Origin: Acetobacteraceae bacterium | GTDB lineage: Bacteria; Pseudomonadota; Alphaproteobacteria; Acetobacterales; Acetobacteraceae | Assembly: GCA_027326105.1 (NCBI GenBank) | Contig: DAHWFB010000121.1 | Coordinates: 1 to 35,055 of the forward strand | DNA: 35,055 nt | Direction: 5' to 3' | Part shown: positions 25,204 to 31,396 of the stretch, in pieces | Numbering within the stretch: position 1 is the stretch's first letter | Layout: every line of letters starts with the position of its first letter | Position numbers and translations under genes: made by a program | The notes under the pieces: generated by a model | Seen by the model: the letters and a program-made list of their open reading frames with translations, nothing else | Database searches by the model: none | What the model was told of the DNA's origin: nothing

Positions 25204-26664
25204 TCAGACCCGCCCGTAGGTGTCCTCGAGGCGGACGATATCGTCCTCTTCGAGATAGCTGCCGGACTGCACCTCGATCAGCGCGATCGGGATCCGCCCG
25301 GGGTTCTCCAGCCGGTGCACCGCGCCGAGCGGCAGATAGATGCTCTCGTTCTCGCGCACCAGGCTCACCTCCTCGTCGCGCGTCACCAGCGCGCTGCCCG
25401 CCACCACCACCCAGTGCTCGGCCCGGTGGTAGTGCTTCTGCAGGCTCAGCTTCTGCCCGGGATCGACGACGATGCGCTTGACCTGGAACCGCTCGCCGCG
25501 GATCAGCGTCTCGTAGAAACCCCACGGGCGATAGACGCGGCTGTGCGCCACCGCCTCTTGCCGTCCGGCCTCCTTCAGCCGGCAGACGATCTTCTTCACG
25601 TCCTGCGCCCGCTCGCGGTGCATCGCCAGCACGGCGTCGCCGGTCACCACCACCACCGTGTCCTTGAGCCCGACGACGGCGGTCAGCACCCCGTCGCTGC
25701 GCACGTAGCAGTCCCGGGCGCCTTCCAGCATCACGTCGCCCAGGGCGACGTTGCCCGCTCCGTCCTTGGCGCCGATCTCCCACAGGGCGCCCCAGCTTCC
25801 CACGTCCGACCAGCCGAAGGCCGCCGGCACCACCACCGCGTTGCGGGTGCGTTCGGCGAGCGCATAGTCGAGGCTGATTTCCGGGCAGCGTGCGAACGCC
25901 TCCGCATCGAGGCGGATGAAATCGAGATCGGTCTGCGCCGCGGCCAGCGCCGCCTGCGCCGGCGCCAGCACAGCGGGCGCATGCTCCGCCAACTCGGCCA
26001 GGAATTGGCCGGTGCGGAACAGGAACATCCCGGAGTTCCATACGTGCCCGCCGGCGGCCAGCATGTGCGCGGCGGTGGCGGCGTCGGGCTTCTCGACGAA
26101 GCGGGCGAGCCGGAAGGCACCCGGCACCGAGCCGATCGCCTCGCCCATGGCGATCCAGCCGTAGCCCGTCTCCGCCCGCGTCGGCTCGATGCCGAAGGTC
26201 ACGATATGCCCCGCCCGCGCCGCCGCCGCGGCGGTGGCGAGCCCGCGCGCCAGCGCCGCTTCGTCCTCGATCGCCGCATCCGCGGCCATCATCCACAGCA
26301 CCGCGTCGGGATCGGTCTCGGCCGCGAGCAGGGCGGCGACTGCCATGGCCGGGGCCGAATTGCGCCCGACCGGCTCGAGCACGATCCGCGCACCCGCGAT
26401 CCCGGCCTCGCGCAACTGCTCGGCGATGAGGAACCGGTGCTCCTGGTTGCACACCACGATGGGCGCGGCGAACCCTTCCCCGGCGGCGCGCAGCGCGGTC
26501 TCCTGCAGCAGCGAACGGTCGGAGATCAGCGGCCAGAGCTGCTTGGGGAAACTCTCGCGCGAGACCGGCCACAGCCGGCTTCCCGAGCCGCCGGAAAGGA
26601 TCACCGGCACGATCGCGGTGGCTGGAACGGGCAGTGGCAGCGGTGCCGGATGCAGCGAGGTCAT
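25204..26664 (-). CDS. manC: Mannose-1-phosphate guanylyltransferase / mannose-6-phosphate isomerase
   Basis: A 486-aa bifunctional enzyme (also called XanB/AlgA/CpsB) making GDP-mannose for exopolysaccharide and glycan synthesis. The nucleotidyltransferase signature VILSGGSGSRLWPVSRESFP is near residues 21-40, FVEKPD ~175, and the type II isomerase cupin is at the C-terminus (~380-486: LSLQKHYHRAEHWVVVAGSA, NESIYLPLGAVHRLENPGRI). Strong SD (GAGGAGGATCG-ATG at 26664). Monocistronic and convergent with the exporter. Nearby c-di-GMP gene suggests polysaccharide control but direct linkage is not shown. Confidence 0.93.
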   Translation of the reverse strand: MTSLHPAPLPLPVPATAIVPVILSGGSGSRLWPVSRESFPKQLWPLISDRSLLQETALRAAGEGFAAPIVVCNQEHRFLIAEQLREAGIAGARIVLEPVGRNSAPAMAVAALLAAETDPDAVLWMMAADAAIEDEAALARGLATAAAAARAGHIVTFGIEPTRAETGYGWIAMGEAIGSVPGAFRLARFVEKPDAATAAHMLAAGGHVWNSGMFLFRTGQFLAELAEHAPAVLAPAQAALAAAQTDLDFIRLDAEAFARCPEISLDYALAERTRNAVVVPAAFGWSDVGSWGALWEIGAKDGAGNVALGDVMLEGARDCYVRSDGVLTAVVGLKDTVVVVTGDAVLAMHRERAQDVKKIVCRLKEAGRQEAVAHSRVYRPWGFYETLIRGERFQVKRIVVDPGQKLSLQKHYHRAEHWVVVAGSALVTRDEEVSLVRENESIYLPLGAVHRLENPGRIPIALIEVQSGSYLEEDDIVRLEDTYGRV

Positions 26665-26843
26665 CGATCCTCCTCAGCGTTCACCGTGGCTCCGCGCCAA
26701 CAGGGGCATGCAGCCGGGGCGCGCATTTCGCACTTGCAACACTCCAATAGATAGCGGGTTCCGCCGCCCCTTGTCCATCGCCTCTTGACGCGGCGGGGGC
26801 TTCCTTCCCTCATACTGTGGCGGAAATGGGGATAGGAGGGACG

Positions 26844-27062
26844 ATGCGGGTCGAAATCGAATACTGCGGCCGTTGAGGCTATGAACCGCGCGCCCGCGAT
26901 GCGCGGGAGATCATCCGGGCCCGCCACCCGGAGGCCGAGGTGAGCCTCGCCAAGGGGCGGACCAGTTCCTTCGAAATCACCGTGGAAGGGACGCTGCGCT
27001 ACTCCAAGCTGGAGCAGGGCCGCTTTCCCACCCCCGAGGAGGTCGAGGCGACGCTCGGCTGA
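26844..27062 (+). CDS. SelW/Rdx-family selenoprotein (in-frame TGA at codon 11)
   Basis: ATG 26844 follows a perfect SD (AGGAGGG, 26834-26840). The frame reads MRVEIEYCGR, then TGA (26874-26876), then GYEPRARDAREIIRARHPEA and a further 41 residues to a TGA at 27060-27062. With Sec at codon 11 the motif is C-G-R-U, the CxxU redox site of SelW/SelT/SelH (Rdx) proteins. Downstream 'GYEPRA', 'TSSFEITVEGTLRYSKLEQG' and 'RFPTPEEVEA' are textbook Rdx features, at 72 aa in total close to bacterial SelW homologues. Codon use after the TGA is the same as before, against a dead gene. Thioredoxin-fold redox role is known for the family; partners unknown. Terminator at 27134. Needs host SelA/B/C, not in this window. 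Confidence 0.88.
26877..26907 (+). promoter_or_regulatory. Candidate bacterial SECIS hairpin after the in-frame TGA
   Basis: Directly after the TGA, CCGCGC (26886-26891) can pair with GCGCGG (26901-26906), giving a 6-bp stem and 9-nt loop GCCCGCGAU whose first base is G. The loop starts 16 bases after the UGA, within the spacing known for bacterial SECIS elements. An alternative fold pairs CCCGCG (26893-26898) with CGCGGG (26902-26907). High GC makes chance pairing possible. Confidence 0.55.
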
Positions 27063-27133: not shown

Positions 27134-27165
27134 AGCGCCGGGCGGCAACCGTCCGGCGCTTTTTT
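27134..27165 (+). terminator. Rho-independent terminator after the selenoprotein gene
   Basis: Twelve-bp stem AGCGCCGGGCGG (27134-27145) with CCGTCCGGCGCT (27149-27160), loop CAA, one G-T wobble, followed by TTTTT. It ends the short transcript that starts before 26844 and therefore supports this interval being a real gene. Confidence 0.9.
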
Positions 27166-27223
27166 CCCTTGAGGGCGCGATCTTTTCTTGACCCTTGCCG
27201 AAACGCCGCAGCAAGCTTGGCGG

Positions 27224-28429
27224 ATGCCCGACATCGCGATTCCCAACGATCCTGCCCGCGCCATCGCCGAAGGCGCCGCCGCATCCGCCCCTCGCCTGGT
27301 CGCGATCCGGCGCGATCTGCACGCCCACCCCGAACTCGCCTTCACCGAGCAGCGCACGGCCGGCGTCGTCGCCGCCGAACTCTCCCGCCTCGGCATCCCC
27401 CATCGCACCGGCGTCGGGCGAACCGGCGTCGTCGGCCTGATCGAGGGCGGGTTGCCCGGCCCCACGCTCGCGCTGCGGGCGGACATGGACGCGCTGCCGA
27501 TCGCCGAGCAGACCGGGCTCGCCTTCGCCTCCCGAGCGCCCGGGCTGATGCACGCCTGCGGGCATGATGTGCACACCGCGACCCTGCTCGGCGCCGCCGC
27601 GATCCTGCGCGATCTCGCCCCCGCGCTCGCCGGGCGGGTCAAGCTCGTCTTCCAGCCCGCCGAGGAGACGCTGGCCGGCGCCGCCGCGATGATCGCGGAC
27701 GGGGTGATGGAAAACCCGCGCGTCGATATGGCGCTCGGCTTCCACAACTACCCGGAGATTCCGCTGGGCGGCTTCGCCACCACTCCGGGCGCCGCACTCG
27801 CTGCCTCGGACCGGTTCGAGATCACGGTGCGCGGCGTCTCCGGCCATGCCGCTCACCCGGATGTCGCGGTCGATCCCATCCTCGCCGCGGCGACGCTGGT
27901 GGTGCAACTGCAATCGGTGGTGGCGCGCGAGATCGATCCGTTCCGCCCGGCGGTGCTCACCATCGGCGCGATCCAGGGCGGTGTCGCCCACAACATCATC
28001 CCCGACGAGGTGGTGCTGCGCGGCACCGCCCGCTCGCTCGACGAGGAGACACGCACCCGGATCGAAGCGGCGCTGCGTCGGCTGTGCGAGGGCGTGGGCG
28101 CCGGCATGCGCGCCCCCTGCACGCTGGCCTACCATCGCGGCTGCCCGCCCCTGGTCAACGACGAGGGGATGCGCCGGCGCCTGGTCGCCTCCGTCGCCGC
28201 CCAGTTCGCCACCCCCGTCGAGGAGCGCGCCCCGAGCTTGGGGGGCGAGGATTTCGCCTATTTCGCCGAACGCGTCCCCGCCGCCCATCTCGCCATCGGC
28301 TCCGGCCAGAAGGGCAGGGCGGATCGGCTGCACAATTCCGCCTACCAGCCCGACGAGGGCGCGATCCCCCTCGGCGCTGCCGCCCTGGCGCGGGCCGCCT
28401 TCGATCTGCTTCGCCCCGGTGCGGGCTGA
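27224..28429 (+). CDS. M20-family amidohydrolase (N-acyl amino acid / hippurate hydrolase type)
   Basis: A 401-aa zinc amidohydrolase from ATG 27224 (a TTG at 27188 is an alternative but lacks support). It hydrolyses N-acyl amino acids, hippurate-like or indole-acetyl conjugates; the substrate cannot be told. Metal site: MHACGHDVHTATLLG (Cys112, His114), PAEETLAGA (Glu147/148), FHNYPE (His174), and LHNSAY near 380. The dimerisation lid GHAAHPD is ~212-218. This is the M20D subgroup with a two-metal site using a Cys. It is convergent with the metallo-beta-lactamase gene, stops only 6 bases apart. Confidence 0.88.
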   Translation: MPDIAIPNDPARAIAEGAAASAPRLVAIRRDLHAHPELAFTEQRTAGVVAAELSRLGIPHRTGVGRTGVVGLIEGGLPGPTLALRADMDALPIAEQTGLAFASRAPGLMHACGHDVHTATLLGAAAILRDLAPALAGRVKLVFQPAEETLAGAAAMIADGVMENPRVDMALGFHNYPEIPLGGFATTPGAALAASDRFEITVRGVSGHAAHPDVAVDPILAAATLVVQLQSVVAREIDPFRPAVLTIGAIQGGVAHNIIPDEVVLRGTARSLDEETRTRIEAALRRLCEGVGAGMRAPCTLAYHRGCPPLVNDEGMRRRLVASVAAQFATPVEERAPSLGGEDFAYFAERVPAAHLAIGSGQKGRADRLHNSAYQPDEGAIPLGAAALARAAFDLLRPGAG

Positions 28430-31161: not shown

Positions 31162-31180
31162 GTCGTGTTCCCGCACTTCC

Positions 31181-31350
31181 GCGCGGGAGAGAGCGGGTTC
31201 GCCCGCCGCCGAAGGCGCAACCGGCCCCCGGAAACGCTCAGGCAGAAGGACCGCGCGGACGGGGAATCTCTGGAAAGCCGGCGGGTAGCCGCCGCACCGA
31301 AGGAGAAAGGGGAAACCCGAATCTCTCAGGTTCCGCGACAGAGGGGGGCC
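31181..31350 (+). promoter_or_regulatory. Tandem glycine riboswitch
   Basis: Two consecutive glycine aptamers. Aptamer 1: P1 GCGCGG (31181-31186) with CCGCGC (31251-31256); conserved GGGAGAG, CGCCGAAGG and GAAACGCTCAGGCAGAAGGACCG-type core. Aptamer 2 (31257-31350): GGGGAATCTCTGGAAAGC, CACCGAAGGAG and AATCTCTCAGG core. Ends ~45 bases before gcvT's start; such tandem riboswitches turn on glycine cleavage genes when glycine is high. The expression platform (likely SD sequestration) was not resolved. One of the most clear-cut signals in the window. Confidence 0.95.
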
Positions 31351-31396
31351 GAAGGGTGGCATCGGGCCGCCCGCCGACCCGTTGCGCGGAGCCATC

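Follow-up and report, generated by a model that had tools for sequence, protein, structure and literature searches.

Selenoproteins of the SelW kind, which carry a CxxU motif, have long been known (PMC1088965, PMC1794560, PMC2398784, PMC9312934, PMC13188914). For the Alphaproteobacteria, a survey of 2006 reports one selenoprotein family, comprising three proteins, with FdhA as the sole selenoprotein (PMC1794560), and three known selenoprotein genes are listed for one alphaproteobacterium (PMC12013277). A tRNA-Sec gene nested in selB has been described for this class (PMC8124441). Genes as small as selW are easily lost in annotation; the SelW genes of Epsilonproteobacteria are reported to have been completely missed (PMC4607533).

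The gene described here had not been called, and ordinary gene finders would break it at an internal TGA. It lies in a stretch of 35,055 nucleotides from an Acetobacteraceae bacterium (GenBank assembly GCA_027326105.1, contig DAHWFB010000121.1), referred to below as the window. Its product shares the PF10262 domain and the CxxU motif with bacterial SelW-like (SELENOW-like) selenoproteins, and there is no basic difference between them. What is mildly new, then, is not the kind of protein but its spread in a class credited in 2006 with FdhA alone (PMC1794560): a missed gene is added, and TGA-encoded SelW proves to be scattered through the class. A search of the open-access literature (SelW with Alphaproteobacteria, selenocysteine with Acetobacteraceae) found no paper on this gene.

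An initial annotation of the window had proposed a hidden SelW gene in an apparently empty interval between manC and an amidohydrolase gene, with a Shine-Dalgarno sequence, Cys-Gly-Arg-TGA at codons 8 to 11, 61 further sense codons, a stop and a terminator. Reading the sequence bears out each of these elements and the two flanking genes (Table 1). The product of the frame is MRVEIEYCGR-TGA-GYEPRARDAREIIRARHPEAEVSLAKGRTSSFEITVEGTLRYSKLEQGRFPTPEEVEATLG-TGA (translation of 26844-27062, + strand).

Table 1. Features of the selW-like locus and its surroundings (positions within the window)
Feature	Position	Strand	Remarks
mannose-1-phosphate guanylyltransferase/mannose-6-phosphate isomerase (manC type)	25204..26664	-	neighbour
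Shine-Dalgarno AGGAGG	26834..26839	+	4 nt upstream of ATG, read directly
selW-like (Rdx family, CxxU) selenoprotein gene	26844..27062	+	72 residues, predicted Sec at residue 11
in-frame TGA, codon 11, probably read as selenocysteine	26874..26876	+	aligned codon is TGA in 40/40 TGA-bearing copies
candidate bacterial SECIS upper stem-loop CCCGC-GATGC-GCGGG	26893..26907	+	loop 21 nt after TGA
intrinsic terminator	27135..27165	+	11-pair stem (one pair G-T), CAA loop, six T; 72 nt after stop, by reading
M20 family peptidase/amidohydrolase	27188..28429	+	neighbour, start codon uncertain

The openness of the frame is weak evidence by itself, because the sequence is 71% GC and 61 open codons would arise by chance with a probability of about 0.35, judged by base composition. 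The frame is more than chance because the part after the TGA is homologous to Rdx. The second TGA, at 27060, is taken as the true stop because 15 of the 40 copies compared have TAA or TAG there instead and because manC, the amidohydrolase and a symporter frame of the window also terminate in TGA. When the terminator is folded from one base further in, it forms 10 pairs with -19.5 kcal/mol; a simple scanner did not list the site, giving only an overlapping one at 27156-27178, and it found no promoter-like site.

There is little doubt about the family. The whole product matches Pfam Rdx (PF10262) with 66.3 bits and an E-value of 2.8e-18, and the part after the TGA does so on its own, with 40.6 bits and an E-value of 3e-10 (cut-off 22.6 bits in both cases), as the proposed SelW/Rdx identity implied. 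A chance frame was rejected on the strength of this second match. The score with TIGR02174 is 61 bits (cut-off 34.2). Residues 3 to 70 also match NCBIfam NF041051 (SelTWH_Campy) with an E-value of 6.7e-19, but the score of 67.9 bits is below the cut-off of 88, which places the protein outside that narrower family. The predicted structure, made with Cys in place of Sec and seven sequences as input, has a pLDDT of 94.7, and its top structural matches are related to SelW: 2fa8, 3dex, 2p0g, 2obk and mouse SelW, 2npb. Three of these, the Rdx structures from Agrobacterium (2fa8), Vibrio (2p0g) and Pseudomonas (2obk), have the same fold, with TM-scores of 0.84-0.91 by query length and 20-37% sequence identity, and presumably carry Cys where the window protein would have Sec. 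By sequence, the closest solved relatives are 2ljk (MIEN1, 2.7e-10) and 2fa8 (6.6e-7). The predicted thioredoxin-like SelW fold thus fits the SelW-like family.

Then there is the evidence from relatives. SelW matches at 1e-5 were found in 8 of 99 other related genomes, seven with a single in-frame TGA and one without (G075). The seven, six from the same family and G070 besides, have copies 37-62% identical to that of the window. In a sample of the class, which overlaps with the first in that both contain G070 and G075, 31 of 384 other genomes match, 27 with the TGA form and four with a homologue that lacks the TGA. To call such a gene uncommon in high-GC alphaproteobacteria, as had been done, is therefore fair but relative. 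A scan of named genome contigs added six loci, all six of the TGA type, in metagenome-assembled genomes of Gemmatimonadetes, Acidobacteria and Bacillota.

The TGA occupies the position of codon 11 in the CxxU motif, just where it had been said to fall, in every one of the 40 TGA-bearing copies (the window's among them), although some of the 39 other copies are closely related to each other and so not all are independent. Five of the 40 have a codon other than ATG, GTG or TTG opposite the window's ATG, and their own start lies elsewhere or is not fixed. Conservation beyond the TGA is present in each TGA copy read, and there is no form with a clear stop among the close relatives. The initial annotation had also asked whether Cys replaces the TGA in relatives. 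It does in the two that were read (L028 and L136) of the four class copies without TGA: both have CxxC, and they are placed together in the tree, far from the others.

I propose that this locus forms a single-gene unit encoding a SelW-like selenoprotein. Ribosomes would start at 26844, and SelB, acting on the hairpin just downstream, would deliver Sec-tRNA at codon 11, the TGA there being read as selenocysteine. Translation would stop at TGA 27060, giving a thioredoxin-fold protein of 72 residues with the redox site Cys-Gly-Arg-Sec, which probably acts in thiol/selenol redox reactions. That this is a genuine selenoprotein gene decoded by the usual SelB route, with selA and tRNA-Sec lying in sequence that the assembly lacks, I hold to be about 88% probable.

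The genome itself (2.55 Mb in 132 contigs, 82% complete) gives a mixed answer. The absence of selA, selB and selC had been named in advance as counting against a selenoprotein; selB is present, as is selD, which answers the objection without clearing it fully. The selD sequence makes up the C-terminal part of a frame of 715 residues on contig C86 (L018 328-2475, + strand); the N-terminal half resembles an NADH dehydrogenase-type flavoprotein, and fusions of this kind are known. The gene for SelB appears in two pieces. The first begins at 8977 on C15 and runs off the end of that contig (271.9 bits, above the cut-off); the second occupies the start of C6 and covers profile positions 385-581 (65.9 bits). 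C15 ends with the same 15 bases with which C6 begins, the two parts are in the same frame by coordinates, and both are open, so that a single gene split where the assembly broke is the simple reading. A search found no match to selA in the 82% of the genome at hand, nor was a tRNA-Sec found there, with 150 of 605 candidates scored. The best matches to the tRNA-Sec model (50.0, 48.5 and 48.3 bits) are tRNA-Ser according to ARAGORN, as against 66.6-83.2 bits for the true tRNA-Sec of relatives, six of which were checked and are tRNA-SeC with anticodon TCA.

How much weight should these two negative results bear? Of 99 other related genomes, 26 have selA and the same 26 have tRNA-Sec. SelB scores above the cut-off in 24 of them (the exceptions are G035, just under it, and G040) and in none of the remaining 73. 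The window's genome is the only one of the 25 with SelB above the cut-off in which selA and tRNA-Sec were not found, and because it is the sole exception a gap in the assembly is favoured over true absence; missing sequence would be the likelier cause. A single gap could hide both genes, because 26-95 nt separate selC from selA in G002, G037 and G050, though the distance is about 2 kb in G014 and G057, and in G033 the two are on different contigs. SelW and the machinery also go together: six of the seven genomes with TGA-type SelW have selA and tRNA-Sec (Fisher p 0.0012, within the family 0.0017). The seventh, G070 (L026), is 77% complete and gave no selA at 1e-30, no tRNA-Sec at 1e-11 and no selB at 1e-50. 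Conversely, 20 of the 26 selA genomes have no SelW match at 1e-5.

An alternative view is that the lineage recently lost selA and tRNA-Sec, that the TGA is now a stop, and that the gene is decaying while selB and selD have not yet been lost. The failure to find the two genes is what one would see, and the window copy does stand on a long branch of 0.81, the branches of the five relatives nearest to it being 0.14-0.43. In the same tree, a weak one of 72 columns, all six same-family copies except G037 cluster with the window copy (94/99), G037 being placed elsewhere. Mean changes after the TGA, over the five pairs of the window with these relatives (57 codons), are 18.6 at first and 16.0 at second positions, higher than the 15.5 and 11.8 among the relatives themselves, with third positions at 30.2 versus 28.5. 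Yet codon 11 is followed by an intact frame with third-position bias, selB is open in both its parts, which are in frame with each other, and an assembly only 82% complete could lose both genes to one gap. All 24 other genomes with SelB above the cut-off have selA and tRNA-Sec. The unusual residues of the window copy, SSFEI and SKL, need not be signs of decay either, since similar ones occur in other TGA copies, for example L119, L123 and L131. Recent loss is therefore an improbable account.

It is a good deal less probable still that the TGA is read through as some other amino acid, whether by ordinary suppression or by a non-standard tRNA overlooked by the tRNA-Sec model. That no standard tRNA-Sec or SelA was found in the window's genome would suit this idea. 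Against it, SelB, whose established role is the delivery of selenocysteine, is present; TGA does not serve generally as a sense codon here, since it ends the manC, amidohydrolase and symporter frames; and the internal TGA falls at the CxxU position and, among relatives, occurs together with the selenocysteine machinery. As for a chance frame, or a Cys codon (TGC or TGT) misread as TGA in what is a draft assembly, the presence of TGA at the aligned codon of 39 other copies in effect refutes it.

The selenoprotein reading places a SECIS element after the TGA. The published model wants a loop of 3-9 nt, a stem of 4-16 pairs, a spacing of 16-37 nt after the TGA, a minimum free energy of at most -7.5 and a G within the first two loop positions (PMC13188914). 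The window hairpin conforms, with a spacing of 21 nt and -8.2 kcal/mol, but the fit is weak evidence by itself: 94 of the 614 TGAs of the window also conform, although only 6 of the 614 have five pairs at exactly that place. The hairpin region folds no more strongly than its shuffles: pieces of 54 and 42 nt have energies at the mean of the shuffles, and the inner 24 nt give z -0.99. The region has competing folds as well.

Over all 40 copies, a register of five pairs with a 5-nt loop (24/30) has 90.5% of its cells paired and 23 double changes, as against 76.8% and 4.3 in shuffles, none of 2000 being as high, with the qualification that the register was chosen after the data had been viewed and that the shuffle control ignores the relatedness of the sequences. 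It is the best of all five-pair registers tried over the 40 copies; the next reach 76%, and registers slid from it by 1-3 positions fall to 38-57%. A seven-pair form of it over 14 copies shows 12 double changes, as opposed to 4.8 in shuffles, with none of 500 as high. A hairpin register with compensatory changes is thus common to most copies, 29 of the 40 having at least five pairs in it. A version of the SECIS model that demands a contiguous stem passed 7 of 14 copies, not all of them in the common register, and failed the other 7.

The common register yields no hairpin in L021-L025, the five same-family copies nearest to the window's. By eye, pairing is possible in them one codon nearer the TGA (columns 16-32 after it). 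An alternative register at 16-21/27-32 was unsupported over 14 sequences, for which a shift by -2 gave a higher score. For comparison, the SelW gene of Campylobacter fetus is described as having no optimal SECIS (PMC4607533).

Formate dehydrogenase-N alpha, the only selenoprotein family looked for besides SelW, gave no match above the cut-off, and none with an internal TGA, in the 82% complete genome. It is tempting, if rather doubtful, to suppose that it is SelW, and not formate dehydrogenase, for which selenocysteine decoding has been retained in this lineage, and that the SECIS loop of the family may have shifted one codon toward the TGA (columns 22-26 in L021-L025, 25-29 otherwise), the window gene being able to form either stem. 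With the gene in hand, it becomes testable whether some lineages retain the whole selenocysteine system just for SelW.

The surroundings of the gene bear on its history. In G057 manC-like and amidohydrolase-like frames flank selW as they do in the window, in G033 only the manC-like frame is present, and in G014 only the amidohydrolase-like one, downstream. This shared order, complete or partial, points to vertical inheritance of selW at the site. Besides this synteny, no functional partner common to the loci emerged when neighbours were clustered over 1.5 kb (3 kb at the six named loci), and the largest cluster, of 14 loci, looks like reverse-strand frames over selW itself. Plasmid records held no match to the SelW protein; for ManC the best plasmid matches are from Azospirillum, at 61%, which fits an alphaproteobacterial host.

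Two observations may be added. A beta-barrel-like outer membrane protein frame recurs, by eye, near selC in G050, G002, G037 and G033 (L095, L096, L097, L100); tried as a synteny bait for the assembly gap, it found only partial matches of 32-43% identity in the window's genome and so gave no synteny evidence. Within the window, just downstream of the symporter-type frame, lies a tandem glycine riboswitch (31174-31351, + strand), its two aptamers scoring 67.5 and 51.9 bits.
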